Shown in pieces: positions 1-19,404 of a DNA stretch of 29,678 bases (position 1 is its first letter; each line of letters begins with the position of its first letter). Below the pieces are notes generated by a model. The model saw only the letters and a list, made by a program, of their open reading frames with translations, did not search any database and was not told the origin of the DNA. The DNA is taken from positions 1 to 29,678 of IMG/VR virus record IMGVR_UViG_3300036399_000778; one strand, given 5' to 3'. The position numbers and the translations under genes are program-made. This DNA comes from a virus.

Positions 1-3000
1 TTCTCAGATAAAGTTAAGCAAGCACTTAACGAAGAGGTGGTAGATGCTACGTTGATGGATGACATGCCTGCATTTGGTCAGTTTGAGAGTGCAGTTAACG
101 AGCAGTCTCAAAAACTTAAGGCAGCCCCATTGATTATCACCGCTATCAAGAGTTTGCCTCAATATAAAAACAACCTCCCTGTAAAGGACAAGGTGTTTGG
201 GGTGAACAAGATTGGTGACTTTGATACTAACTGGAACATCTTACAGAGAACTTTATCTGGTACTAACAGTTACGCAGATATGTATAGAAGGATTCAAGAC
301 TTGACTACTCGTTATGGTCAGTTCCGACAACTCCTTTCTTACCTGCCTAAACCCTCTGAGACTGATGTAAAGCAGAGTACGCTAAACTTTAAGAACGCTT
401 TCTTCAATACCTTCTCTATGCCATACATAGATGGGTATACAAATGAAATCACAACCACTACTGAAAAGGATGGTCAAACTAAAGTAACCCACGCTATCTA
501 CAAAGCACAGTCACTAGACTCTAAAAACTTGCGTCGTGCCTGGGATAACGATTTTTATGTTACTGATGGATTCTATAAGAGTATTGATGGAGAGACTGGT
601 AGTTACTATCTGAACGCAGATAAATACTTTGAGGATTACCCAACTGTACCGGATGAGCCTATCTTCACCTCAGAAGAGGATAAACTCAACTACCAAGAGT
701 CTCTGTATGCTATGCTTACTCCACTAGGATTTAACTTTAGTGAGTTTGGTAAGGAGGCTTTGTTTACTATGCCCGTTAAGGATTTCCGTAGACAAGTAGA
801 ACGTATCCATAAAAAGATCATTTCTCTAAGTGAAACACAGCGATACATCTTTACTCCTTTAACTAGTATTTCTTCTGAGCACATTAACTCTGAGGACGAA
901 GTTGTTTTCTCTGAGCAAACTGCTTTACTTGAACTTATTCAGTTCGAGGTACAAGCTAACGTAGAGTATGTGAACGACATGCAATACAATGCTTTGGGTA
1001 AGAAAGTATGGTCTGTAAATCCACATACTTACATGACAAGAGTTCTTTCTATTATGAATGACTCTACCCTGTATCCTACCTTGGACGATGTATACAGAGA
1101 GTTGCCTCAGTTAGATCCTGCTAAGAACCCTGCTGCTTCTTTCTCTGCTGTAATTAAGTACATGTTTACACCAGCCGGTAACAGAAGACTGAATCCTGAT
1201 AACTCTACTAGAACTCTTGATATTGCTAACTTGTTGGGTGTTAAAGAAGGTTTTGATGGAGAGAAGACCATTGATGTTGTAACCCCTGTAAAACATTACA
1301 CAGATGTTATGGGCTTACTAGCTTCTGGTGTTGAAGAGGTTAACCGTTTCTCAGGTAAGAGCACTACACGTGGTTTGGTACTTGATGACAGATTCCGCTA
1401 TGAGTTAGGGATGAAGTCTGCTTTTACCTACAACAATAGTTTGGTGATTCCCGATGCAGTATTTGCGAATAGTATTTTGCCAATACTCTTTGGTGAGATT
1501 TACACAACCCTAAACCCTTCTAGTAAGTTCCGAGTATCTGTAATGGAGAATGAAACTACTCCTATCTTATCTTATTTTCAGCAGATTCTTGAGCCAGCTG
1601 TTCGTGCCCAGTTGTTTGCTAGCTTTAAGGAAGAGTCTAACCTAGCTAACTATACTCTAGTATATGACAAGTTACCTACTGACTTGAAAAATAAAGTAAT
1701 CAAACAATTCAGTGCGTATATCTACGACAACATTCAGGCAAGTAATGCTTTCTTCCAGGGTGTTTATTCTGTTCCTTTTGAAGACTTGGCAAAGTACCAT
1801 GTACTAAGCTTTATCTCTCGTGTAGAACAACACAAATTATTCTATGGCCATCCTTACTACTACAAGAATGATAAAGAGATTGAAAAGCGTATCAGTGCTT
1901 GGAATGCTTACGGTAGTTATGCAGTAATAGATCAACAAAACTTAGAGTCTGTTAAGGACGCATACACACAACGTGATGCTTTCTTACATCATAACTCAAA
2001 GAGCAATGCCCCTGTGGATGTTGCTACTGGTATGAGCAGAGACTTATCTAAGATTTCTTACATAGTCCTCAAGGATACCGCTGTGTCTTCTGATACGGCT
2101 AACAACAGTGATGCTTACAACAAAGTAGGCGGCACTAAGAACGGTAAGAAAGTTACCTTAAAACAGTACTACAATGATAAGGATTCTAAGCGTCATGATG
2201 CAGCTGCGTTCTGTACCATGGACTTCTACAAACGCTTCTACAAGTTGTCTACAGGTGTTAGCGAGGCAATGCGTAAAGAGTTTGATAGACAGGATAGAAT
2301 CTATGCTCTACTTCTTCAGAAACAATCTGGTGTAGATAATCAAGAAGAGTTAGATAAAGTATTGAACGAAGGTCCTTACTATGCATTTAACATTAAGAAA
2401 CTTCAGTATGCAGGTCACGCAGCCATAGAATCAGGTGAAAGTATTCCTGTATTCCACAAGTACTCTGTTAAGCCTATCCTACCTTCTGAATTAGTTACTA
2501 GTCCAGAGTTGGCTCAGATACTTGCTAAAATGCATGCATCAGGTGCTGACTACGCTGTGGTTTCTTCAGGTACTAAGATTGCCGAGACTATTGAGCCAGT
2601 TAACTTGTTTAATGAGGATGGTAGTGTAGATACTAATTTTGTTCCTACAGGTTCTATCGACATGAGATACCTTAAAGAACAGGTGTTGGTAGAGAACAAG
2701 GAAACCTTCATGAGTATTTTTAGTACTCAGTTCAGAAAACTTGCTTACAAAGATTCTGAGAAGAGCGAACTCTACGAGGCTTATAGAAAGTACATCGATG
2801 AGTTGGTATCTCTAGATAAGATTAGTTTTGTTTCTAAACTAGAAGACCAAGAAAAACTTGTAGAATACTTGCTAAAGGAACTTTCTAAGAAGAACGTAGC
2901 TGAAGCAACTAAAGACTTAATTAAACTTAAAGAGAACGGTGAACTCCAGCATACACTTGATGCTATGATTGACCGTACTGTTATGGAGAGTGCTATTGTA

Positions 3001-6000
3001 GCCTCTGTAACGAACGATATCTTAAAACAAAAAGTACCAGGTGCTCAACGAGTTCAGTACCCTGCGTCATTGATTAGGCCCGGAAGAAAGCTTGGTTACT
3101 ACGACCTAGTTACAAATGCTGAGAACAAGAAAGTAATCAAGCAAGCCGAAGCCATGATTTCTTTCTCAAAGGGTTACTATCCTTTGTTAAATTTAATGTA
3201 CAACGGACAGACTATCGGTGAGTTTGATGCAAAAGGTAAGCCAGTAAACATGTCTAGTGCCGTAAGAAGACTTAACGAAGCATTGACTAATCCTATTTTC
3301 GTAGAAGCCAATTCAGCTATCCTAGATAAAGCTTTGACCATTGCAGCGATTCGTGTACCTGGTCAAGATTACAACTCTATGGAAAGCTTCCGTGTTGTTG
3401 AGTTCTTACCCGAAGAGTCAGGAGAAATCATCTTGGTACCTGATGAAATGGTTATCAAGTCTGGTTCGGATTATGATATTGATAAGTTGTTCTGCTATGA
3501 CCCATTCATTGAGTTGGACGGTAGTGTGTTGACTAATAACATTACACCACAACAAGCCTTTGAAGCAAGAGAAGCAGCTAAGCAAGAACTAGAAGCTATT
3601 AGAGAAACTAAGAAATCTCTATCTAAAGGTATCAATGCTATTCGTAAGCGTATCCAAGAGGTAGTGACTATCGCAGGATTCGATGCAAGCAACACAAGGC
3701 TTAAAGACCTGTACAAAATGTACACAGACTTTAATGCTGAGCAAGAGGAAGAAGACAGACCTATTAGTCAAGAAGATGTAGCTAGGCTTGCTAACTTCTT
3801 TAAGGAACCCTACGAGACTAAAAAGAAGAAAGCTACCACAGAGATTAAAAAGATTCTAACTGCTCTTAGAACAGCTAATAACGAAGGTCTGAGTGATTCT
3901 TTGTTTGCTTTGAATGAAGAGTTGTCTGCTTTATTGGAGCGTGAGAGATTCCTAACTCACGAGGTTAAGGCTATCCGTGGTCGTTTCTCAAACAACTTAC
4001 TCTTTAACTTGGCAGAACGTTTGACTGATGAATCATTGTTTACTTTGTTACTTCGTCCTAACAGTTCAGATACTGTGACTGAGATGGCAAAGTTGTTTGG
4101 TGAGTCTAACAAGTACACTACGGCTTCTTACACAAACATTGTTAATCCTTTGTACCAATTATATGTGCATCAGTTGAATGCATTCAAAAAGTCTTTGGGT
4201 GTTGATGCAAAATCTAACGTATTGCATGCAATCCTCCAAAAGGCTGGCTTGGTTGTAATTGATAAACAAGCTGTAGAAGATTATCCTCTAGATGCTAATG
4301 GTAAGTCAACAGGTTTTCTCGATTTCAGTTCTAATTTTGACGTAGAGTACAATAAAACTAAAGGCAAGAAAGGAACTCGTATCGGAGACATCAGTGGTCA
4401 GTTGATTACTGCTCACGTAGATATCGAACGAGACGATAACATTGCTAAGATTTTCCTTAACAATAAACTTACTCCGACTGCTAACTATATGAACATGCTT
4501 GGCAGCAGGTTTGAGGATATCGTAAAGATGATCAACCTATCTTACAAGAACGTTGATGGTGTTAAGAAGGATTCTTCGATCATCCGATACGCAAGAGGTA
4601 GTGCTAAGTACTTATCTAAACGTGACTTTGTACAAGCTATTCTAAATGAAAAACTAGATAAAGCTTTTGCTTGGTCTAAGAAAACAGGAGAGCCTCTTCC
4701 AGAGTATGCTCAGTTCTTAAATGCTTCTTTGAATCAGTTTGGTACTGAGATTATGGTAAATGCCCTTAAGAAGAGACTGAATGCTTATCGTATCAGTAAC
4801 CCTGACGCATTGCTCAGCGATCAGACTGAGATGGGTGACTTGCTTCGTTTTGTAGGATGGATTGCAACTGAAGAACAGCAAGATAAACTATTCATACTTT
4901 CATCTAATACAGACTTCGATACCTTTACTCCTCAGAACTTTGAGTCGTTCCGTAAAGGTGGTCAAGAATTGGCTGATTTGATGAAGTCTAACTTCTTTAA
5001 TAAAAAGGGTGTTCAGAATGTAATTTTTGAATCTGTAGTATCGCCTTTCCAACTTCAACAAGACATCTTTGATAAGTTGGAAACTATATTCCCAGTATCT
5101 GCAAACAAAACATTAACTAGTCTTATCATCAGACTTCACAGAAGTATGAAGGCTCTTAACTACAGGTTGGATTATGATACCTTCTCAAGAGTATTTAAGA
5201 ATGACTTGCTATACTCTTTGTTCAGAAACAACGTACCTCAAGTAGCCGAGTACGAGAAACTTCTAGATAAGCGTAACCTCGGTCACATCAGTACCTTGTA
5301 CAACAACCTTAAGGTTAGATTGGGACAAAGAGGTATTCAGTCTGATAACTTAATCTTTGACGGGGTAGTGTTTACTACCAATGAAGATAGTCAGTTTATC
5401 AGGGCCGGTTATGTGCAATCAGAGATTGACTACTCAGTAGATATGCTTCGTGAAGACTTCAGTAATGGATTCAACTGGTCTCATCCTAGCCTAGACCCGA
5501 CTAACGAGGATGACCAAAGATTGATTCAAGATATGCAATCGTTCTTCAAGGCTTATGCTTATGCAGGTATCATCGGTACCAACTTGAACAAACGCTATGA
5601 TTCATACTTGCCTTTGATTCCTGAACAGGTTTACACGTTGCCGATGTCTTCTATCATTTCAGAGTTTACTGTTGGCTTGGCTGAAAACATCAAAACCATT
5701 ACAGATGCTTTGGTTGCAGACTATAACGCCAAAGAGAACAAGGAACTATCTGATGTTCTTAAGGAAACTATGACGACCACTAGCGAAGAACGTGGTACTG
5801 TTATCAATAACGTATTGTCTGAACAGATGGATACCTTGCTAGATTCTTTGGGAGATTCACACATAGCTAAGTTTGTTCGTAGGTTCAAGGAAGTACATCC
5901 AGAGTTTAGCCGTACTAAAGACCCTAACATTGACTTGTTCTACTTTAAGGACTACGACTTGACTAGAGAGTCTATCACCCCTAGCAGTAAGGTACTTCAG

Positions 6001-6672
6001 TCTAGCTTGACTACCCGTAACGATAATCCAAACCGTGAGTATACGCCTAAAGAAGTACTAGAACTTCAGCCTAATGAAGTTTTTGTATTCGGTGCTAACA
6101 CACTCGGCCACCACGGATCAGGCTCTGCCGGTTATGCTCAATACAAAAACGGTAAGGCTAACTACAATGTACTAGAACCAGGAACCAAAGGCTACTGGTC
6201 TGAGTACGGAGTTACTGACCGTATTATGCAAGGTACGAACGGTATGTCTTACGGAGTTGTTACGAAGTTCGCATCAATGAAGAACGGTAAACTTAAGATA
6301 GGTGCTAAGAATAGTATTCCTTTGAGTGCTGTGGAGGAGTCAGTAGTAGGTATGTTAAAGACTGCTGCCGACAATCCTAACTTGAAGTTCTTGGTTACTG
6401 CTATCGGAGTTAAGCAGGCTGGTTGGAACACTCCTCAGATACGTTCAATCTTTGCTAAGCACAATGCTATCATACCTGACAACGTAATTCTTCCTAAGAT
6501 TTTTGAAGTTAGAGACAGTATTGTTCCTACTACAACCACCGATGAATCTGGTAACATTGTACCGCTTGTGCCTGAGAACTTCGAAGCAATCAAAAGAGAT
6601 GCTATCAAGGATACTTTCCAAGAGTTAGCAGACATCAGTAATAACCATGAAAACTTCTGTGGCGGGGCTTAA
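1..6672 (+). CDS. Virion RNA polymerase (crAss-like two-barrel type) with C-terminal macro-like domain, 5' end cut off
   Basis: The frame is open from base 1, so the GTG at 37 is not the true start and the gene begins upstream; 2223 residues are visible. A conserved block at visible residues about 1011-1036 (KVPGAQRVQYPAS) and another ending in LPEESGEIILVPDEMVIKSG lead into DYDID at residues 1157-1161. DxDxD is the metal-binding loop of the double-psi beta-barrel RNA polymerases, including the roughly 2200-residue virion RNA polymerase of crAss-like phage phi14:2. Known of that family: the enzyme is packaged in the virion, ejected with the DNA and transcribes early genes. Residues about 2020-2180 form a separate domain starting FVFGANTLGHHGSG, resembling phage macro-like (ADP-ribose-binding fold) proteins. 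The gene ends 39 bases before the next giant gene. The RNA polymerase call is strong; function of the tail domain is inferred. Confidence 0.85.
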   Translation, partial: FSDKVKQALNEEVVDATLMDDMPAFGQFESAVNEQSQKLKAAPLIITAIKSLPQYKNNLPVKDKVFGVNKIGDFDTNWNILQRTLSGTNSYADMYRRIQDLTTRYGQFRQLLSYLPKPSETDVKQSTLNFKNAFFNTFSMPYIDGYTNEITTTTEKDGQTKVTHAIYKAQSLDSKNLRRAWDNDFYVTDGFYKSIDGETGSYYLNADKYFEDYPTVPDEPIFTSEEDKLNYQESLYAMLTPLGFNFSEFGKEALFTMPVKDFRRQVERIHKKIISLSETQRYIFTPLTSISSEHINSEDEVVFSEQTALLELIQFEVQANVEYVNDMQYNALGKKVWSVNPHTYMTRVLSIMNDSTLYPTLDDVYRELPQLDPAKNPAASFSAVIKYMFTPAGNRRLNPDNSTRTLDIANLLGVKEGFDGEKTIDVVTPVKHYTDVMGLLASGVEEVNRFSGKSTTRGLVLDDRFRYELGMKSAFTYNNSLVIPDAVFANSILPILFGEIYTTLNPSSKFRVSVMENETTPILSYFQQILEPAVRAQLFASFKEESNLANYTLVYDKLPTDLKNKVIKQFSAYIYDNIQASNAFFQGVYSVPFEDLAKYHVLSFISRVEQHKLFYGHPYYYKNDKEIEKRISAWNAYGSYAVIDQQNLESVKDAYTQRDAFLHHNSKSNAPVDVATGMSRDLSKISYIVLKDTAVSSDTANNSDAYNKVGGTKNGKKVTLKQYYNDKDSKRHDAAAFCTMDFYKRFYKLSTGVSEAMRKEFDRQDRIYALLLQKQSGVDNQEELDKVLNEGPYYAFNIKKLQYAGHAAIESGESIPVFHKYSVKPILPSELVTSPELAQILAKMHASGADYAVVSSGTKIAETIEPVNLFNEDGSVDTNFVPTGSIDMRYLKEQVLVENKETFMSIFSTQFRKLAYKDSEKSELYEAYRKYIDELVSLDKISFVSKLEDQEKLVEYLLKELSKKNVAEATKDLIKLKENGELQHTLDAMIDRTVMESAIVASVTNDILKQKVPGAQRVQYPASLIRPGRKLGYYDLVTNAENKKVIKQAEAMISFSKGYYPLLNLMYNGQTIGEFDAKGKPVNMSSAVRRLNEALTNPIFVEANSAILDKALTIAAIRVPGQDYNSMESFRVVEFLPEESGEIILVPDEMVIKSGSDYDIDKLFCYDPFIELDGSVLTNNITPQQAFEAREAAKQELEAIRETKKSLSKGINAIRKRIQEVVTIAGFDASNTRLKDLYKMYTDFNAEQEEEDRPISQEDVARLANFFKEPYETKKKKATTEIKKILTALRTANNEGLSDSLFALNEELSALLERERFLTHEVKAIRGRFSNNLLFNLAERLTDESLFTLLLRPNSSDTVTEMAKLFGESNKYTTASYTNIVNPLYQLYVHQLNAFKKSLGVDAKSNVLHAILQKAGLVVIDKQAVEDYPLDANGKSTGFLDFSSNFDVEYNKTKGKKGTRIGDISGQLITAHVDIERDDNIAKIFLNNKLTPTANYMNMLGSRFEDIVKMINLSYKNVDGVKKDSSIIRYARGSAKYLSKRDFVQAILNEKLDKAFAWSKKTGEPLPEYAQFLNASLNQFGTEIMVNALKKRLNAYRISNPDALLSDQTEMGDLLRFVGWIATEEQQDKLFILSSNTDFDTFTPQNFESFRKGGQELADLMKSNFFNKKGVQNVIFESVVSPFQLQQDIFDKLETIFPVSANKTLTSLIIRLHRSMKALNYRLDYDTFSRVFKNDLLYSLFRNNVPQVAEYEKLLDKRNLGHISTLYNNLKVRLGQRGIQSDNLIFDGVVFTTNEDSQFIRAGYVQSEIDYSVDMLREDFSNGFNWSHPSLDPTNEDDQRLIQDMQSFFKAYAYAGIIGTNLNKRYDSYLPLIPEQVYTLPMSSIISEFTVGLAENIKTITDALVADYNAKENKELSDVLKETMTTTSEERGTVINNVLSEQMDTLLDSLGDSHIAKFVRRFKEVHPEFSRTKDPNIDLFYFKDYDLTRESITPSSKVLQSSLTTRNDNPNREYTPKEVLELQPNEVFVFGANTLGHHGSGSAGYAQYKNGKANYNVLEPGTKGYWSEYGVTDRIMQGTNGMSYGVVTKFASMKNGKLKIGAKNSIPLSAVEESVVGMLKTAADNPNLKFLVTAIGVKQAGWNTPQIRSIFAKHNAIIPDNVILPKIFEVRDSIVPTTTTDESGNIVPLVPENFEAIKRDAIKDTFQELADISNNHENFCGGA
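3469..3483 (+). other. DxDxD catalytic loop of the virion RNA polymerase
   Basis: These codons read Asp-Tyr-Asp-Ile-Asp, preceded by KSGS and followed by KLF. In two-barrel RNA polymerases three aspartates in this spacing hold the catalytic magnesium. All three are present, so the polymerase is probably active. Confidence 0.85.
6061..6530 (+). other. Macro-like domain fused to the RNA polymerase C-terminus
   Basis: The encoded stretch contains NEVFVFGANTLGHHGSGSAG, then a GTNGMSYGVVTKF segment and an FLVTAIGVKQAGW segment. Stand-alone phage and bacterial proteins with the order F-V-F-G-x-N-x-x-G-x-H-G-x-G, then G-x-S-Y-x-x-x-T-K, then V-T-x-I-G-x-x-x-A-G belong to a macro-domain-like family, whose fold binds ADP-ribose or related nucleotides. 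The glycine-rich loops are intact. Whether it binds or cleaves a ligand here cannot be seen. Confidence 0.6.
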
Positions 6673-6711: not shown

Positions 6712-9700
6712 ATGATTTGTCCTAATTTAAATGATCCAGAGGTAAAAGCTAAGTTTGATCAACTGCTTAGTGTAGTACCTGAATATGCTTATTACCTCTG
6801 GGATAAGTATGAGGGAGAAGTTCCTGCTAAATACTACAACCTAAGTACAGTAGCCCCTGGACTAGGAACATCCGTTACTACTGTTGAGAATGCTATTAAA
6901 AGTAACCTACCAAAAGAAATTAGTAATGCTGTTAGTGTAGTGGACCTTGTTCCCTTAGATATACTTGGTAGAGAGGATCTATTCCTTTCTATGAAGGAGA
7001 TCCTGAACGAGAATGGAATTACAGATGAACTTTTAATTAACTGGGCTGGTAAGAACAAAGCAGTAATTGGAAATATAAAAAAGTTTAGGTCTACAGAACA
7101 ACTTGAGAAAGTAGTTGATACTATATATAACAACAAAGCTAAGGTAGAGAACCACGTTGAACTTAAGTCAAATGAGTTAGCTTTAAATAGTTTTAAAAAG
7201 TGGGTAGAAGCCTTAGAGAAGTACCCAGTACCTTTTAGAGACTTAATGTTAACTCACGCTATTAAGTACTTGAATCCACAAAGAAGGTCTAAGTATGTTT
7301 TACAGTTAAGCAAGGTAGCACTTCAGAAAGCGTATGGCATAGTTGTAAACAAACCTCACGAAGCTAATAGGATAGGTAAACTATATGATGAAGAGGTTCT
7401 AGCTACTTTATCAGATTCTGTAGATCATGAACCTTCTGCTAGTGGTAAGGGATATTGGGTGCATGTGCCTAGAACAGCTAAAACTGATGAAAAATTATCA
7501 GATAGAGAACAATACAAAACAAATGTAGAAACTCTTAGAAAACTGTCTCCCTCTACTTGGTGTACTTCTGGTTCTATGACAGAATATTACGTACAAAACT
7601 ATGATAATTACTTACTGATTGTAGATGGTATTACTGTTGCAGGGATTGAGGTAGGAATAAATAACACAAGCTCTAGACAATTACATGGTACTAAAGTATT
7701 TTATCTTTTTAAATCTGATGGTTATTTAAAAGATGGGTATGCTATTTATTCTGATAGAAAAGAAGAACTTGATGATAAAAATTTATTAACTTCTGAAACA
7801 ACTAAAAACCCAAGTGGAGTAGAATTTACTTATATAAACCTAAAGGAAGAAGATAAAGAAAAAAGACCAGTAAAAGAAGTTACATCAAGAGCTAACAATG
7901 GGGTAGCACCAATAGATCATTTAGATGATATAATAGCATTTTTTGAAAAGCATAACTTAGACTTAAACAATAATTCTGTTAAAAGAGCTCAACAATTAAA
8001 GTCTGAAGGAAAAGTAGATTCTGAGTATAAAGAAGAATTTCAAGGTTATATAGATCCATTTGACTACGAAGGACAGCCAGATTTTTATGATCCAGATTAT
8101 GATTTTGATGTAGACCAGTACGAAGAATTAAGAGCAGAGGAGAGAAATAGAAGGCAATTAATTGCAGCACAATTGATTTCTGTAGAAGAAACTCTAGACA
8201 ATCTTGAATTACTAGCATTACAAAACGAGAACAATGTTTTTCAGCAAATTCCCCAAGAACTTAGAGATGACGAAACTGTAGCAAGAAGGGCAGTTCTTTT
8301 AGACCCCCATAACATAAGACACATAAGTACTAACGTTCCTTTTTACAGAGAACTTGCAACTGAGGTTGTTACTAATACTCCTTATATCTGGAGTTACCTA
8401 CCAGAAGAAGGTAGAAATATACCTGGATTAGAGGAAATATACCGACAGTATAATCTAGAAGATGACCTTCCTTTCTCTAAAACTAGTTCAAAACAAATAC
8501 AAGGGTACTATGATCCTAAGAATGATAAAGTCGTAGTAGTAGCATCTAATGTATCTCCAGAAGAAGCCCCTAAGGTTGCTATTCACGAAGTAGCCCACAG
8601 AGGTATGCTTAGGATGGCTAAAGAGTTGAAAGGAACGAAGGAACTTTATCAAGTATTGTTTAACTCTGAGAAGGAGTTAATGAAAAAACTTCCTGAGTTA
8701 CTTAAGAGAACTGGACATACAAACATAGAAAGTTTGTTACAAGACTATGGATTTAGTACAGAGTCAGAAGAAGGTAAAGCAAAACTCCTAATGGAGTTGG
8801 CAGCAAGATGGGCAGAGACTTTAGTAGATAAACCTAAACCTACTTGGTGGAAACAATTCTTGTCAGGTATTCAACAGTGGGTAAAAAACTTTACAGGTAA
8901 GACCTTAAATGAGGCTGAAGTAAACGAGTTGGTAGGTGGATTTGTTAGATATGGTACTGCACCTGTATCTAACGTCATGTATAGTAAGGCTACTCTAGAT
9001 GACATTAAGAATCATTACTTAAGACTAGAGGTAAATTTAAAGCTTGCACAGGACCTACTGAAAAACCCTGAGTACGTTAGTCTAGATAGCTACAGTAAGA
9101 AGATTGCCTACATATCTAACAAAGTATGGCAGTCTGAAACTCAGAAGATTAAAGACAGGCCTTCTGTGACCTTGATTGGTAATAGAATCTACCACACTAG
9201 TACCGAGTACGTAAAGCCACACCAGATTCTTGGCTATGCTGATACTACCGCTTTAAAGATTAACAGTAAATACATCATCAACGGAGGCAAGAAGATCGCT
9301 TGGGCAAGGTACGATGACTCTGGAGTATACGTAGAGATTGACCCTCGATACAACTTTGCTGCTGATATAGTTGACCTAGTAGAAACCGTAGAAGAGGAAG
9401 AGATACGTGCTGAGATTGAAATGATGGGTTTGCAGGAAGCATTAGATGCTGAGAAGCATGCATTGATGGAGAAGTTAATCCAGTCAAATGAATTGTTAAT
9501 TGACGGAGAAGTATTGCCGCTAAGTAATGTTATGTTCCAAAAGACCATGGAGTTATCTAATGTTCTTAAGAGAGGTAACGTACGTAAGTTTGGGCAAATC
9601 TTTGACAAGTTGGTAGCTAAGTTCCCAGGTGTAACCTGGGCATGGGATACTAGTATTGATGGTGCTGCTCGTGTAGATCTAGCAACCGGACAGATACTTG

Positions 9701-12700
9701 TTAATCCTTACTTGGTAAAAGAAGATACTGCTTGGCATGAGTTCTCACACTTTATTATCAGAGGTCTAAGGACTTCTAATCCAGAAGCGTTTAGTAAACT
9801 TGTCGCTCAAGTAGAAAAATTGCATGCAGAGAATCCTACAGGATCATCTCAAGCTTATGTAGAGGCTAACTACCCTGAGTTAAAAGGTACTGCAGAGTTC
9901 TGGGAGGAAGTAATTGCTACTGAGGTTGGTTCCCAAGCAACCGAGTACACTCCAAAGACAGGTCTTTACAATACCATTGTACAGTTCTTTACAGATATCT
10001 TAACTGATTTAGGATTTGTAACTCCTAAGTTTGATACATTGGGAGACATCGTAACAGCGTTATATAATCCTAACTTTGAGTTTGAGTTCTACCCAACTAA
10101 CTCTGAAGTATCCGATTACATGTTCAGTAGGGTTATGCCTAAGGATATAGATGCGTTCACTGAGCATTTGATGCGTGACCCAAATAATCCAGATGACTTT
10201 AGTCCTGCCATTAAGCAGATTCAGTTAATATCTGATGCAATCACTGACCAAGAGTTTGCACGTTTGATGGACACCAACAAGTACTTTACTAGTGAAGAGA
10301 TTAGAAAGTCAACTTCTCTAAGACAAGCAGGTGCCGTATTCGAGTCTTCTAAAGGTCGGATAAAGGCCATGGCTACCAAAGAGGATGTAGCAGAGGCTGT
10401 ACTAGATTTGGCAAACTACATGCAGTACATGTCAATCTACTTTCAAGGATTGATTGACCACTTGCAGACACTTAGCCAAGACCCTAACATACCTCCTGGA
10501 AAAAAGCTAGGCGATATTCACAGGGCTTTCAAACAAGCATTAGTTGTACAGAGACACATAGAAGAAATCACTGGAGATAGATTTAACAATCAAGGAGCGT
10601 TAGCTAGAAGTGTATTCAAGCCTAACACAGTTTCATCTATCGTACAGTTGGCTCAGACTTCTGCTAAGCAAGAGGTAAACACTAATCCTTTCTTGAAGAA
10701 CTTGTTCTGGTTGAAACAGTCGCTTAACTCTATTGTTGAGAAGCACAACCAATACATTCAAGAGCCTATTCTAGATGAACTTTCTGAGTACTACGAAGAG
10801 GCTACCAAAGGATTGATTGAAACTATTAACCAAGACATTCAACAACTAGATTCTCAGTTGTCTAAGAAGTCTTTTGATGTAGTAGGTCAAGCTAATAAAA
10901 ACAATGCAGACCGTACTTACCGAAACCGTGTTGTACGTGCTATCAGTAAGGTGGGTAACGGGGTAGATTCTAAATTTGTAGTAACCTATACAGACGGAGC
11001 TATTCAAGAGTTTACAAACTTTAGGCAGTTTAAGCTGTCATTTGAGTTGCCTGTATCTGTAGGTAATATCTTAAATAGAATCCAAGACAGTAAAGACGAC
11101 TACACCAATAAGCTTCCTACACGAGAGAACTTGTCTAAGTTACTTATGGATACTAATAGTGAGTTGTTTGCTGCGTTTGACACAGCCACTACCACTAAGA
11201 ACCCAGGAATACAACTTGTAGCCAGTTACTTGAAAGGCATGGATATCTCGCATAGAGGTTCTTTGACTACCCTACGTAGTGAGATGGAGAACTTAATGCA
11301 AGATATCATCGCTGAGGAGGGTGCACAGTTTGGCGGATCTATCGTAGACGTTAAGAGTTTCTACAAGCCTTACTACAGGGAGACTTTCTTGTACGAGGTA
11401 GTTGATGGAGTACTTAACAAAGACAAGCGTATCTTAGTTTTAAATACTGCTACCAAGACAGTAGAGATGCGTAACTACATGACTGAGCAGAACTACAACA
11501 TTCAACATGGTATGGATGATGTGGCTGACTTAGACCCGACTGACATGAGTGCCGAGGCAGTTGCTAGGCGCAGTGCTGCGGAACAGAAAGTACAGGAGGC
11601 AATTGAGAACCTTGAGAAGTTCAAAGAACAGTATACTGAACGTCCGTTCACTGATAAATACTATGAGATTCAAGCCAAGCTACCTGTAGAGATTCGTAAC
11701 AAGCGTAACAGCATCTACCAAGAGATGGCTGCTGTTAGAGAAGCTTTCGTAGGTGGTGAGATTACAGAAGAAGCGTTTGAATTACTCCGCTTAAACCAAG
11801 CAGAGTTGGATGACATGGAATCTCTTTACGATTCTTTAGGTAATCTTAAACAGGGAGAAGCCTATGATGTAGCAAAAGCAATCATCGATTGGAAGACTGC
11901 TAAGTCAAATACCGAGATTCCTCAGTTGGATGCCAATGGTATGCCGTTGCTGGATGCCAAAGGTCAGCCTATCGTGAAGATAGTACCAACTACTGTTTAT
12001 CCTAAACTATCCGATGAGACCTTAAACGTATTCACCAGGACACTTTCTTCACGTAAACAGAAGTTACAGTCAGCTATTGCTGCTGCTGAGAGTCAATACA
12101 AGGCTGCACAGAATGATTCTGCTAGACAGTTGGCTCTTAGATTAAAACAAGATGCTTACGATGAGTATAATCGTTGGGCTTCTATCTACACACGTACTAC
12201 TTACTCTCAGGCTTTCTATGACGAGCGTGCTTTAATTACTAGTGAGATTCAACAGTTGTTGGGTGACAGAGGTGATAACCTAACTGAGTTGTATGAGAAT
12301 CTATTTAACTTGCTTAAGGGTAAGAAAGATAGAAATGGTGAGTACATGCCTAACGAAGTTAGTGATGGTCAACGTCAGACTGCTAAAGAACTAGAAGAAC
12401 GTATCGAGGAGATTAAAGGTCTTACTCGTCAGAACTCTCCCTTAGATAAAGACACTAAGGAAAAGTTAGTAGTACTTGTCCAAAAACTTCAAGACTTACA
12501 GAGTAACGTTAACTCAAAAGCCTACGAGAAAACTGTAGAGGACATCAAAGCAAGTTTGCGTACTCAGATAGCTACAGCTAATCCTACATTAGATAGTTCT
12601 TCTATTGAGAGACTTGTAAGCCAGGCATTTAAACAGTCTGCTTGGTACGCAGATAACCACATTAAAAAAGTAAGATACGATTCTCAGAGAGAGGAAACTG

Positions 12701-15144
12701 TTCTTGTAGAGGAGCCTATCTTTATGTGGAGAGTAACTAGGCCTAATGATGAGTCTTATATTGAGGAAGAAGCTCCTTCATTCCTGTGGTTTAGTCCTAA
12801 AGTAAGTACAGAGTTTCAGAACCCTAACCACGTGTTGGGAGAAACTACCTTCAAGGAGACTACCTCAGGTCCTTACTATAACGCTAACTATGATAGTTTA
12901 AGAAGCAATCAGAAAGTTCTGCTTGGTCGTATGCGTGATGCACTGAACGGTGCACAGTCTGAACTTTACAAAAAGGATAAGTTAGGTGATATTATCCCCG
13001 GAATCTATAAGACAGGAGGTGAATTATTCATTGACTTGATTACAGGTAGATCTAATCCGTTAAAACGTTGGTGGAATCAACAAAAGGAATGGTTGTTAGG
13101 TGAAACACGTCAGGCATTGGGTGATGAGGATGAAACTTTTGGTATTGCAGAACAAACAGATGCTTTTGGAGAACCTATTACTAGAGAGTCTCGTAAGTTA
13201 TTCGTAAGATATAGCCGTCCTATGGCTGCAGAAGAACAGTCTTATGATATTATGACTGCCATTGCTTCTTACTCAGCATCTGCTGCTAGGTTTAGAACTC
13301 ATCGTAAGTACCAATCTACTATTCTGGCAATGGAAGAATTGCTTAGTGGTAGAAAGGCACCTGCTTCTTTGTTAAATAAACAGGGTTCTTCAAGCAATAA
13401 AGTAATTGGTGATTTGATTGACCGTCAGTTGTATGGTAAAGGAGTAAATAATCCTAAGAACGTTTTTGCTAAAGTAGCCAATGGTATTCTACATGGTGCA
13501 GGTAGACTTGCCGGTGCTAAGAGTTTGGGTTTTAACGCCATCTCTTTGTTCCCTAACTACTTTAACGGTTACAAGAACAACTTGGCAGACCGTAGATTCT
13601 ATGACTTGAGTTACAGCGATTACTTGGCTGCCTACAAAGAGACTATGGGATTGTCTTTAGACTTTATCACTGGTCATGCTCAGACAGGTAATAAGCCTCT
13701 ACGTATGCAGATCATTGATTTCTTTGGGGGAACTCAATCTAACTACGAGCAAGAGTTTAAGGAGTTGTCTAACAAAGGAGTCTTTAAGTATTCTAAGTTC
13801 CATAAGTTTGTCTCTAACTTAAGGGAGTACACTGAATATGATATTGCTGCGCAGACAACGTTTGCCATGCTTAATAAATATCGTGTACCTCTAACTACTG
13901 GTGGAGAGATTAAGCTTAAAGATGCTTTCCACATAGTAAACGGGGCACTTGCTATCAAACCTGACGTAGTAGTTTCTCCTCAGTTGCTTAGAAAGATTAA
14001 GGATGAGATATCTACCGCTAACTATCGTGCACAGGGTGTATACGATAGTATCGGACAACCTACTGTAGCCAAGTACGCTTTGGTACGCCAACTTCTGTTT
14101 TTGAAGAAGTGGGTTCCTATGCATGCTAAGACAGAGTGGGGAGTAGGAAACATTCACTATGGTGCCGGTGTTAAGACTGTAGGTGCCAACTTAGCAATGA
14201 TGCGTTTTCTTCAACAGACTTTCTTTGAGTATGGAAGATTCTGGGAAGCAAGTAAAAACTTGACTAAGGCAGAGAAGGCAGCATTGGCTAAATTTAGATT
14301 TAACTTCTTTGCTTACTTGACTCTAGGTAATGTTATCAGTCAGATGGCTTTGTCTCTTGAGTGTGAAGATGACGGAGAGGCTGACTGGAAGGACTACGTT
14401 TGTTTCTTGTCAAAGAAAATAGCTAACGAAGCTGAAGGTGTATTCACTCTTTGGGGCATGAACGAAATGTTGTTTACTTATGTACAAGAGCAAGCAAACG
14501 GTACAGGATTCTTCGAGAAGTTAGGTTGGTCTGTTTTTGGTCCGTTCAGTGTATTTAGAAAGTTTGTAGATTGGGACAATGGTTTGTATAGCACAGACCC
14601 TTACTACAAGTATCGACCTAACTCTGATAAGATTGATTGGGATAAAACGCACCCAACCCAAGCAGGTAAGCCTGGTTTAGGTGTACTTGCAATGGAGATA
14701 CTAGGAACTAAAGGTGCTATGTTAGGATTAGATGCTAAGTCTATCGAGTTCCAGAACAGAGCATTTAACAGTTACACTCCTAAGACGTACACGAAAGAGT
14801 TGCGTACTCGTTACCTTGAAAATCATGATGGTCTTGAGACTATGAAGACTCGTACAGAAGAAGCTCAAGCTAAAAAGCAGTACAAGAAACAGCTTAAGCA
14901 ACTACAGAAAAGAGTATCTGCATTTGAAGCCGCTGGTGAAGATGTGCCTCAGGAAATCTACGATGAGATGGAAGTATTAAACTCTAACTACTCTGTAAGA
15001 TTAAGTGAGATTCAGGCAGGACGTGAACCCAACAAAGTATTTACAGGAGTGAAACCATTCTATATGTCAAGGCCAGGATTAGACTTAGAGGAAGAAGAAA
15101 TTTCTCAAGCAGTTGAAGCTCCAAGTTCTGATGAGTTTGATTAA
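6712..15144 (+). CDS. Giant virion/ejection protein with two zincin metallopeptidase motifs (polyvalent-type)
   Basis: This 2810-residue protein follows the virion RNA polymerase, where crAss-like phages keep other giant proteins packaged with the DNA. Visible parts, in order: an N-terminal region with an SPSTWCTSGSMTEYY motif near residues 280-295; an acidic Asp/Tyr-rich linker (about 450-485); a first HExxH (H625, E626, H629) with a downstream MELAARWAE helix (E695); a second HExxH (H1009, E1010, H1013) with FWEEVIATE (E1065/1066); a long helical, coiled-coil-rich middle; hydrophobic stretches near 2258-2288 and 2528-2550; and a charged coiled coil near 2716-2770. HExxH with a later E is the zinc site of zincin peptidases. 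Role in host takeover, DNA ejection or processing of virion proteins is inferred. Base composition drops sharply to AT-rich around 7680-8200. Confidence 0.75.
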   Translation: MICPNLNDPEVKAKFDQLLSVVPEYAYYLWDKYEGEVPAKYYNLSTVAPGLGTSVTTVENAIKSNLPKEISNAVSVVDLVPLDILGREDLFLSMKEILNENGITDELLINWAGKNKAVIGNIKKFRSTEQLEKVVDTIYNNKAKVENHVELKSNELALNSFKKWVEALEKYPVPFRDLMLTHAIKYLNPQRRSKYVLQLSKVALQKAYGIVVNKPHEANRIGKLYDEEVLATLSDSVDHEPSASGKGYWVHVPRTAKTDEKLSDREQYKTNVETLRKLSPSTWCTSGSMTEYYVQNYDNYLLIVDGITVAGIEVGINNTSSRQLHGTKVFYLFKSDGYLKDGYAIYSDRKEELDDKNLLTSETTKNPSGVEFTYINLKEEDKEKRPVKEVTSRANNGVAPIDHLDDIIAFFEKHNLDLNNNSVKRAQQLKSEGKVDSEYKEEFQGYIDPFDYEGQPDFYDPDYDFDVDQYEELRAEERNRRQLIAAQLISVEETLDNLELLALQNENNVFQQIPQELRDDETVARRAVLLDPHNIRHISTNVPFYRELATEVVTNTPYIWSYLPEEGRNIPGLEEIYRQYNLEDDLPFSKTSSKQIQGYYDPKNDKVVVVASNVSPEEAPKVAIHEVAHRGMLRMAKELKGTKELYQVLFNSEKELMKKLPELLKRTGHTNIESLLQDYGFSTESEEGKAKLLMELAARWAETLVDKPKPTWWKQFLSGIQQWVKNFTGKTLNEAEVNELVGGFVRYGTAPVSNVMYSKATLDDIKNHYLRLEVNLKLAQDLLKNPEYVSLDSYSKKIAYISNKVWQSETQKIKDRPSVTLIGNRIYHTSTEYVKPHQILGYADTTALKINSKYIINGGKKIAWARYDDSGVYVEIDPRYNFAADIVDLVETVEEEEIRAEIEMMGLQEALDAEKHALMEKLIQSNELLIDGEVLPLSNVMFQKTMELSNVLKRGNVRKFGQIFDKLVAKFPGVTWAWDTSIDGAARVDLATGQILVNPYLVKEDTAWHEFSHFIIRGLRTSNPEAFSKLVAQVEKLHAENPTGSSQAYVEANYPELKGTAEFWEEVIATEVGSQATEYTPKTGLYNTIVQFFTDILTDLGFVTPKFDTLGDIVTALYNPNFEFEFYPTNSEVSDYMFSRVMPKDIDAFTEHLMRDPNNPDDFSPAIKQIQLISDAITDQEFARLMDTNKYFTSEEIRKSTSLRQAGAVFESSKGRIKAMATKEDVAEAVLDLANYMQYMSIYFQGLIDHLQTLSQDPNIPPGKKLGDIHRAFKQALVVQRHIEEITGDRFNNQGALARSVFKPNTVSSIVQLAQTSAKQEVNTNPFLKNLFWLKQSLNSIVEKHNQYIQEPILDELSEYYEEATKGLIETINQDIQQLDSQLSKKSFDVVGQANKNNADRTYRNRVVRAISKVGNGVDSKFVVTYTDGAIQEFTNFRQFKLSFELPVSVGNILNRIQDSKDDYTNKLPTRENLSKLLMDTNSELFAAFDTATTTKNPGIQLVASYLKGMDISHRGSLTTLRSEMENLMQDIIAEEGAQFGGSIVDVKSFYKPYYRETFLYEVVDGVLNKDKRILVLNTATKTVEMRNYMTEQNYNIQHGMDDVADLDPTDMSAEAVARRSAAEQKVQEAIENLEKFKEQYTERPFTDKYYEIQAKLPVEIRNKRNSIYQEMAAVREAFVGGEITEEAFELLRLNQAELDDMESLYDSLGNLKQGEAYDVAKAIIDWKTAKSNTEIPQLDANGMPLLDAKGQPIVKIVPTTVYPKLSDETLNVFTRTLSSRKQKLQSAIAAAESQYKAAQNDSARQLALRLKQDAYDEYNRWASIYTRTTYSQAFYDERALITSEIQQLLGDRGDNLTELYENLFNLLKGKKDRNGEYMPNEVSDGQRQTAKELEERIEEIKGLTRQNSPLDKDTKEKLVVLVQKLQDLQSNVNSKAYEKTVEDIKASLRTQIATANPTLDSSSIERLVSQAFKQSAWYADNHIKKVRYDSQREETVLVEEPIFMWRVTRPNDESYIEEEAPSFLWFSPKVSTEFQNPNHVLGETTFKETTSGPYYNANYDSLRSNQKVLLGRMRDALNGAQSELYKKDKLGDIIPGIYKTGGELFIDLITGRSNPLKRWWNQQKEWLLGETRQALGDEDETFGIAEQTDAFGEPITRESRKLFVRYSRPMAAEEQSYDIMTAIASYSASAARFRTHRKYQSTILAMEELLSGRKAPASLLNKQGSSSNKVIGDLIDRQLYGKGVNNPKNVFAKVANGILHGAGRLAGAKSLGFNAISLFPNYFNGYKNNLADRRFYDLSYSDYLAAYKETMGLSLDFITGHAQTGNKPLRMQIIDFFGGTQSNYEQEFKELSNKGVFKYSKFHKFVSNLREYTEYDIAAQTTFAMLNKYRVPLTTGGEIKLKDAFHIVNGALAIKPDVVVSPQLLRKIKDEISTANYRAQGVYDSIGQPTVAKYALVRQLLFLKKWVPMHAKTEWGVGNIHYGAGVKTVGANLAMMRFLQQTFFEYGRFWEASKNLTKAEKAALAKFRFNFFAYLTLGNVISQMALSLECEDDGEADWKDYVCFLSKKIANEAEGVFTLWGMNEMLFTYVQEQANGTGFFEKLGWSVFGPFSVFRKFVDWDNGLYSTDPYYKYRPNSDKIDWDKTHPTQAGKPGLGVLAMEILGTKGAMLGLDAKSIEFQNRAFNSYTPKTYTKELRTRYLENHDGLETMKTRTEEAQAKKQYKKQLKQLQKRVSAFEAAGEDVPQEIYDEMEVLNSNYSVRLSEIQAGREPNKVFTGVKPFYMSRPGLDLEEEEISQAVEAPSSDEFD
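7222..7970 (+). other. N-terminal region with 'SPSTWCT' motif in the giant protein
   Basis: The region encodes LSPSTWCTSGSMTEYYVQNY, then a beta-rich stretch (YLLIVDGITVAGIEVG) and a terminal helix (HLDDIIAFFEKHNLDL). The pattern S-P-x-T-W-C-T followed by Y-x-L-x-V-x-x-G and a closing D-x-I-x-x-F-x-x-x-N-L helix recurs, from memory, in large phage proteins of unknown function. I cannot assign an activity. Cys284 and Trp283 are the most distinctive residues. Confidence 0.45.
8480..8980 (+). other. First zincin-like metallopeptidase domain
   Basis: A strand-like GYYDPKNDKVVVVASN leads to VAIHEVAHRGM (H625, E626, H629 of the giant protein); about 65 residues later MELAARWAE offers E695 as third zinc ligand. 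A Trp-rich tail (PTWWKQF, QQWVKNF) follows. All zinc and catalytic residues appear present. Confidence 0.65.
9625..10095 (+). other. Second zincin-like metallopeptidase domain
   Basis: WAWDTSIDGAARVDLATGQI leads to TAWHEFSHFIIRGL (H1009, E1010, H1013); about 50 residues later FWEEVIATEVG offers E1065 or E1066. The layout strand, HExxH, helix with Glu, then a hydrophobic tail (IVQFFTDIL) repeats that of the first domain, although sequence identity is low. Confidence 0.65.
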
Positions 15145-18566: not shown

Positions 18567-19145
18567 ATGAAAAAACTTATATTCTTACTAGTATTCCTAA
18601 CCTCTGTGAGCATTTACGCCCAGAGGGATAGTGTGTTCATTAAAACCCCGATATACTCTTGCGTATACTCAGAGGTTCTCCAACAGCCTAAACGTGTGTG
18701 GTACACAGTACAATGCCCTACAGGAGCGTATCCTCGTAAGGGAATGGACTTCTACACTAACGATAGTGTGATTACTTCTGATGGAAAGGATTATGAAGCC
18801 AACGTATGGGACAAAGGACACTGTGCCCCGGCTGCTGACTTTAACTGCACAAGAGAAACTCTATGGCAGACGTTTTCGTATTTGAATTGTATTCTCCAGC
18901 ACGAGAAATTAAATAGAGGTGCTTGGAGATTGCTTGAAGCTTATGAGCGTCAACTAGCATTAACAAAGGTGGTGAAGGTACAAATAGATGTAATTTATGT
19001 TAAGAACGCTGTTAAACTACCAACAGGTGCTACTATCCCTACAGCCTTTAGAAAAACAATTAGCTTTGATAATAAAAAAGAAATCTATTACTTTGTAAAT
19101 GAAGCTCCGAGTTCAACAGACTTTAAGCTTTATTTAATAAAGTAA
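18567..19145 (+). CDS. Secreted DNA/RNA non-specific endonuclease (NUC1 family)
   Basis: A typical signal peptide (MKKLIFLLVFLTSVSIYA, cleavage likely after residue 18) precedes a His-Me-finger nuclease core: EANVWDKGHCAPAADF with catalytic H85 in a DKGH variant of the usual DRGH, and YLNCILQHEKLNRGAW with N107 and N116 in the metal-binding helix. The family cuts DNA and RNA without sequence preference, using magnesium. At 192 residues it is short but contains the whole core. It lies 3 bases after the spanin-like gene, so it is probably expressed late with lysis and exported to the periplasm. Likely roles are degrading released host nucleic acid or blocking incoming DNA; these are inferred. 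Confidence 0.8.
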   Translation: MKKLIFLLVFLTSVSIYAQRDSVFIKTPIYSCVYSEVLQQPKRVWYTVQCPTGAYPRKGMDFYTNDSVITSDGKDYEANVWDKGHCAPAADFNCTRETLWQTFSYLNCILQHEKLNRGAWRLLEAYERQLALTKVVKVQIDVIYVKNAVKLPTGATIPTAFRKTISFDNKKEIYYFVNEAPSSTDFKLYLIK

Positions 19146-19148
19146 ACT

Positions 19149-19382
19149 ATGGATTTACAAGCACTTAGATTTAAGATAAATGAATTTTATCTTGAGTCAA
19201 AAAATAGAGAGTATCCAAACTCTGTATTAGTTACTAACGAACAATATAAAGATTTCCTTAAGGAGATGTTTAGAGTTCCTGACTTCTCTGAGATTCCTGA
19301 AGGGATATTCATCACTTCGATTGAGGGACTTAAGGTTGTCTTCACAGAAGAACTAGAAGAACCTAGGGTACTAAAAATGTAA
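19149..19382 (+). CDS. Small protein of unknown function
   Basis: The 77-residue protein begins MDLQALRFKINEFYLESKN, is charged, soluble and mixed alpha/beta (EIPEGIFITSIEGLKVVFTEEL). It follows the nuclease by 3 bases and is the last gene of the plus-strand arm; its stop codon touches the hairpin terminator. No family is recognised and no cysteine or membrane segment is present. Confidence 0.6.
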   Translation: MDLQALRFKINEFYLESKNREYPNSVLVTNEQYKDFLKEMFRVPDFSEIPEGIFITSIEGLKVVFTEELEEPRVLKM

Positions 19383-19404
19383 AGGGGAGCGAACTCCCCT
19401 TTTT
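19381..19404. terminator. Bidirectional rho-independent terminator between convergent arms
   Basis: A 9-bp stem, AAAGGGGAG (19381-19389) with CTCCCCTTT (19394-19402), closes a CGAA loop and runs into TTTT on the plus strand. On the minus strand the stem ends in TTT, then ACATTTTT. It lies between the last plus-strand gene and the last minus-strand gene, so it probably ends both operons. Confidence 0.85.

Follow-up and report, generated by a model that had tools for sequence, protein, structure and literature searches.

Little is known of how crAss-like and other Bacteroidota phages handle competitors and bring about their own release, and the locus analyzed here touches both matters: what may a phage gain from a nuclease that it sends out of the cytoplasm? 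The stretch of DNA examined (the virus record IMGVR_UViG_3300036399_000778, 29,678 nucleotides, hereafter the window) very likely codes for such an enzyme, next to lysis genes. An original prediction, made from the letters alone, had described a secreted nuclease with complete catalytic residues, located after spanin-like genes in a lysis cassette, had suggested that it may keep out superinfecting phage, thin the lysate or destroy the DNA of rivals, any of which would be a notable phage strategy, and had proposed a survey of related phages.

The nuclease and its active site

The open reading frame coincides exactly with the one originally predicted (ATG at 18567, TAA at 19143-19145; Table 1). 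It matched PF01223 (Endonuclease_NS) with 74.2 bits, over a curated cut-off of 23 (E 1.5e-20), PHROG 14168 (nuclease) and, by sequence, the solved Serratia nuclease (1e-6) as well as EndoG/EXOG; the NCBIfam search gave no match for it. The active-site block reads W-D-K-G-H85-C-A-P-A-A-D-F ... L-N116-R-G-A-W-R-L-L-E124, preceded by R57, with H85 as the catalytic histidine within W-D-K-G-H. As had been predicted, the catalytic set (D-[RK]-G-H, Asn, Glu and Arg) is complete: R57, K83, H85, N116 and E124 were identical in 59/59 aligned relatives. The strict DRGH motif is not found, position 83 being Lys (DKGH) in all 59, chromosomal ones included, which makes it a trait of this nuclease branch and no defect. 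The replacement of DRGH by DKGH would be the argument for a wrongly read frame, or for a remnant that is inactive or stays in the cytoplasm, but this explanation is scarcely credible: DKGH occurs also in the chromosomal homologues, the catalytic residues are all invariant, a signal peptide is present in every listed cluster, and the mature-domain dN/dS against relatives was 0.04-0.13, indicating a functional gene. The product is thus predicted to be a DNA- and RNA-cleaving enzyme of the EndoG/NucA/Serratia type.

An AlphaFold model built from 59 diverse relatives reached a mean pLDDT of 90.9, superseding a first one from 27 close relatives (pLDDT 69.9, poor near the active site). The best solved-structure matches found by Foldseek were mouse EndoG, Anabaena NucA, human EXOG and Serratia nuclease (probability 1.00, identity about 17-25%), and the model has the beta-beta-alpha metal fold of PF01223. 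The best viral structure match was a 192-residue protein, 56% identical and consistent with the immuto phage protein described below; other viral matches were sparse, with giant viruses of eukaryotes among them. Secretion beyond the cell via a C-terminal sorting domain was rejected, since in the model the catalytic fold extends nearly to the last residues and leaves no space for such a domain.

Predicted export as the constant trait

The N-terminus (MKKLIFLLVFLTSVSIYA, followed by QRDS) shows the layout of a signal peptide, again in agreement with the original prediction. In 54/54 phage clusters listed (sequences grouped at 90% identity) a hydrophobic N-terminal segment stands ahead of the mature domain, with an N-terminal hydrophobicity score that about 11-15% of the genes around it attain by chance. 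Export is the most conserved trait of the nuclease and is kept even where the signal sequence has diverged. Within the window's lineage many pairs have signal sequences of 12-35% identity over mature parts of 80-93%, which suggests selection on signal-peptide function and not on a particular sequence. Since export is conserved over the 54 clusters, the enzyme very likely acts outside the cytoplasm. We are highly confident, from predicted export, that this non-specific nuclease leaves the cytoplasm and would thereby spare the replicating phage DNA; being always exported, it could destroy periplasmic or external DNA without harming the phage's own copies. We infer that it is retained in the periplasm.

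Both Cys50 and Cys94 are present in 55/59 sequences and both are missing in 4/59, these four occupying at least two places on the nuclease tree. This joint presence and absence suggests a Cys50-Cys94 disulfide, a bond expected only outside the cytoplasm. Sequences without the pair (L096, L099, L167 and L181) carry two C-terminal cysteines, at about 177-210, that suggest an alternative disulfide. Besides, L166 and L172, two of the phage clusters, show a lipobox-like end (VAC) with a linker after it; their nucleases look like putative lipoproteins, tethered and not free.

Neighbourhood, carriers and operon contexts

In the window the order is holin, two overlapping spanin-like genes, nuclease, small gene and terminator-like hairpin (Table 1).

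Table 1. Features of the window around the nuclease gene
Feature	Position	Strand	Basis or remark
Holin, Phage_holin_4_1 family, 139 aa	17590..18009	+	PF05105 2.8e-5; PHROG 199 holin 2e-5
Putative inner-membrane spanin-like protein, 106 aa	17993..18313	+	Topology from sequence
Putative partner spanin-like protein, 123 aa	18192..18563	+	Topology from sequence
Exported PF01223 (EndoG/NucA/Serratia-type) nuclease	18567..19145	+	192 aa; R57, D82-K83-G84-H85, N116, E124
Signal peptide, residues 1-18, cleavage near A18/Q19	18567..18620	+	Predicted: layout and family conservation
Small conserved gene, 77 aa	19149..19382	+	3 bases past the nuclease
Intrinsic terminator-like hairpin, 9 pairs, between convergent genes	19381..19402	+	Closes the late operon

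The 106-aa product has an N-terminal membrane segment and then a charged, probably helical, periplasmic part. Its 123-aa partner, encoded by the overlapping gene in another frame, has a signal peptide and then a C-terminal hydrophobic segment; a canonical lipobox was not seen in it. Family searches gave no match for either gene, so that on topology alone the name spanin-like is plausible but unproven. The predicted placement of the nuclease in a lysis cassette agrees with the upstream holin and the two overlapping genes, less securely so for the spanin label. Outside the window's close lineage the 77-aa gene is not kept downstream of the nuclease, and family searches gave no match for it; as a linked immunity protein or inhibitor it is unsupported. 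Two giant ORFs of the window (37-6672 and 6712-15144, 2211 and 2810 aa), for which the family searches gave next to nothing, resemble giant proteins of crAss-like phages. In several crAss-like relatives we have found a 2.3-kb block, absent from the window, between the spanin-like gene and the nuclease (L009:3660-5296; also L012, L024, L030, L033 and L042, and L049/L051 without a nearby holin). It codes for a PAS/HATPase histidine kinase of 400 aa and a response-regulator protein of 145 aa, and a phage two-component system adjoining lysis genes is unusual.

The window ends short of a capsid gene. A 110-kb contig (that of L007) carries a nuclease 98% identical to the window's, shares the local gene order and holds the crassvirus major capsid protein and ring proteins (PF23898, PF24228, PF25702); judged by these genes on that contig, the window's lineage is crAss-like. 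With early and late arms assigned by gene content, an early-type arm (+) and a structural late-type arm (-) converge there at the nuclease, which is the final late-arm gene save one small gene. The equivalent convergence in the window is marked by the hairpin. One protein of the same contig (L217-L222) matches Por_Secre_tail, the C-terminal sorting domain of type IX secretion, and Lectin_C and Cohesin matches were also obtained; it is possible that some proteins of this phage are exported through the host's type IX system. The crass capsid cut-off was exceeded in 7/35 large nuclease-bearing contigs, all seven from the window's broader lineage, and the remaining ones, including the cultured 160-kb Flavobacterium phage immuto_2-6A, gave no crass capsid match. 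Apparently unrelated Bacteroidota phages therefore share the nuclease, its carriers being phages of freshwater Bacteroidota, crAss-like ones included. A 112-kb contig (IMGVR_UViG_3300020042_011666) has two copies (L065/L085 and L068/L087), 82% identical over 173 residues and about 46 kb apart. A contig binned as Lokiarchaeota (L088, JAEORV010000306), whose nuclease is 59% identical to the phage one, is probably a mis-binned Bacteroidota-phage contig.

The integrase family PF00589, the only one searched, was found in 0/18 large contigs, possibly incomplete, and in 14/14 control genomes. By this measure the nuclease-bearing phages look virulent or at least non-integrating, and a prophage with lysogenic conversion was rejected on the same result. 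This bears on a role known from Campylobacter: the DNases encoded by its prophages are reported to be expressed, to be periplasmic or extracellular and to render strains non-transformable (PMC3995785; PMC10893306). The nuclease of CJIE4 is a distant homologue (28%), and the window enzyme might in the same way block natural transformation or act in lysogenic conversion, like those of CJIE2/CJIE4. We consider this very improbable, given the 18 contigs free of PF00589 and the little that a virulent phage would gain.

The surroundings of the gene were then compared over the 54 phage clusters, which were found mainly via two nuclease queries (at most 80 loci per scan), the counts being those of a sample and not of the virosphere. 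In 18/54 a holin, GH19 endolysin or spanin-like gene stands no more than 3 kb from the nuclease, and in 17/54 nucleotide or 7-deazaguanine genes do; none of the 54 has both contexts and 19 have neither. The nucleotide-type neighbours are RNR, ThyX, QueE/QueC, GTP cyclohydrolase and phosphoribosyltransferase. Some nucleases sit between nrdB and nrdA with gaps of 1-44 bases, as in L159, L168 and L173, where the gaps to these ribonucleotide reductase genes are 44 and 1 bases. Linkage to 7-deazaguanine-type genes (QueE/QueC, GTP cyclohydrolase) is recurrent (L104, L107, L122, L156-L158, L170, L174, L078 and L068). In unrelated phages the nuclease directly adjoins GH19 endolysins. Mapping the lysis label onto the nuclease tree takes about 10 changes, at least eight by well-supported branches, implying that the gene moved repeatedly. 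Among contigs of at least 50 kb with a detected lysis gene, the nuclease was no more than 4 kb from it in 7/23 cases against 1.8 expected (P 0.0014, shared ancestry being ignored), and four of the seven belong to one lineage. The survey that had been proposed thus bears out export throughout, and the lysis cassette for the window's lineage, but not as a property of the family.

These contexts also allow a metabolic reading, in which DNA outside the cell or in its periplasm is broken down by the exported nuclease, and the infected cell takes up nucleosides or phosphate for phage synthesis. It would agree with the 17 clusters in which genes for ribonucleotide reductase, ThyX, phosphoribosyltransferase or 7-deazaguanine lie beside the nuclease, often with hardly any gap, and with the existence of chromosomal Bacteroidota homologues with signal peptides. 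However, the 18 clusters in lysis regions are others, the window included, late expression would be of little benefit, and no uptake genes were seen near the nuclease, which leaves nutrient supply an improbable main function.

Possible roles and known systems

For the window copy we favour, tentatively and at slightly less than even chances, that the nuclease mainly degrades host DNA freed at lysis, the lysis-time role being the least certain part of our interpretation. The enzyme would be made late by the crAss-like phage, its gene closing the transcription unit for structure and lysis, and would pass through the Sec pathway into the periplasm, where the disulfide probably forms. Export would separate this non-specific nuclease from replicating and unpackaged phage DNA. 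Once holin, endolysin and spanin-like proteins opened the cell, the nuclease would meet the freed host chromosome and cut it, releasing virions from DNA and lowering viscosity; before that, during its stay in the periplasm, the enzyme could also attack DNA from any other phage that had stalled in this compartment. The computed support comes from the fold, the catalytic residues, the conserved export layout and the late-operon position beside holin and spanin-like genes, before the terminator. An enzyme kept in store until lysis would agree with export that is constant and operon timing that is not, and since the window copy ends the late arm beside lysis genes, cutting of host DNA at that moment is its likeliest benefit. 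Against a lysis role speak the 17 clusters whose nuclease gene belongs to nucleotide or 7-deazaguanine operons and should be expressed in the early or middle period, and the enrichment near lysis genes, which ignores shared ancestry and owes four of its seven close cases to one lineage; against a free lysis-time enzyme speak the two clusters that look like tethered lipoproteins.

Directly and closely behind lysis-time clearing ranks, for the window copy, superinfection exclusion, in which a periplasmic or membrane-tethered nuclease would cut the DNA of rival phages whose ejection is stalled or blocked. Host endonuclease I is known to cut superinfecting T-even DNA, and long infections are plausible for crAss-like phages. 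The invariance of export over the listed clusters would suit such a barrier, as would the lipoprotein forms of two clusters, which hold the nuclease at the envelope, the early or middle operons of 17/54, which would place it there in time, the large relatives without integrase and the crAss-like membership. But a copy in the late arm, such as that of the window, comes at the time when exclusion is of least use, and most tailed phages deliver their DNA directly to the cytoplasm. Neither a linked immunity gene nor one that blocks ejection was recognised, and PADLOC gave no match to a defence system. Exclusion as the main function is thus possible but, on balance, doubtful. Somewhat more doubtful is the combination of both, with the nuclease shared and exchanged among apparently virulent Bacteroidota phages as an envelope barrier that first destroys periplasmic rival DNA and then clears the DNA of lysis. 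If so, a single enzyme would serve exclusion and virion release, with the lipoprotein forms anchoring it at the envelope.

Each role would have its own consequence. A nuclease that excludes rivals would be the phage's own equivalent of host endonuclease I, with superinfecting DNA as its target, and one that clears lysates would add a DNA-degrading step to host lysis besides the usual wall and membrane steps. A compact, always exported clade under strong purifying selection, found in unrelated phages and in lysis or nucleotide operons, is a defined and testable gene, and immuto_2-6A gp012 in Flavobacterium sp. LMO8 offers a cultured system for it. A partial literature search found no description of such a nuclease clade in Bacteroidota phages, and gave nothing usable on a phage-encoded periplasmic nuclease excluding superinfecting phage or on T4 DNA breakdown by endonuclease I.

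Among known enzymes, Serratia marcescens nuclease, Anabaena NucA and mitochondrial EndoG share the fold of the window nuclease (TM about 0.76-0.80 by query length) and its active-site residues, but with about 215-245 residues they exceed it in length, their identity to it is about 19-24%, and the window enzyme differs by DKGH and by its probable disulfide. Much closer are chromosomal exported nucleases of Flavobacteriales (e.g., L090 and L091; 46-48% identical), which have in common with it the signal peptide, DKGH and Cys50/Cys94, but are bacterial genes outside any recognised phage and form a mostly separate part of the tree, with two phage sequences among them.

Exported nucleases carried by phages are already known in kind, so that the notable strategy of the original prediction has precedents. 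Streptococcal prophages carry exported DNases (Sda1, Spd) with a role in virulence; like the window nuclease they are exported and phage-carried, but they belong to prophages of a Gram-positive host. The CJIE4-like nuclease of Campylobacter jejuni (KF751795 nucA) is phage-encoded and homologous, with a signal-peptide-like N-terminus as in the window, although the identity of 28% covers the catalytic part only and, unlike the window gene, it is a prophage gene adjoining a repressor-like gene. As in CJIE2/CJIE4, the window has a phage-encoded nuclease of the family with a signal peptide; an integrating element was not recognised, PF00589 being absent from 18/18 large relatives and the window being a 30-kb fragment. 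The closest cultured counterpart is gp012 of Flavobacterium phage vB_FspM_immuto_2-6A (NC_055915, annotated as 'nuclease', DNA/RNA endonuclease G NUC1), which is 56% identical over its full length of 192 aa and likewise has a signal peptide and belongs to the same nuclease family. It adjoins ribonucleotide reductase and a Holliday-junction resolvase-like gene and not lysis genes as in the window, and its 160-kb phage has no detectable crAss capsid match, in contrast to the crAss-like lineage of the window. What is new in comparison with all these systems is a large, compact and always exported clade in apparently virulent Bacteroidota phages, crAss-like ones included, with two alternative operon homes.
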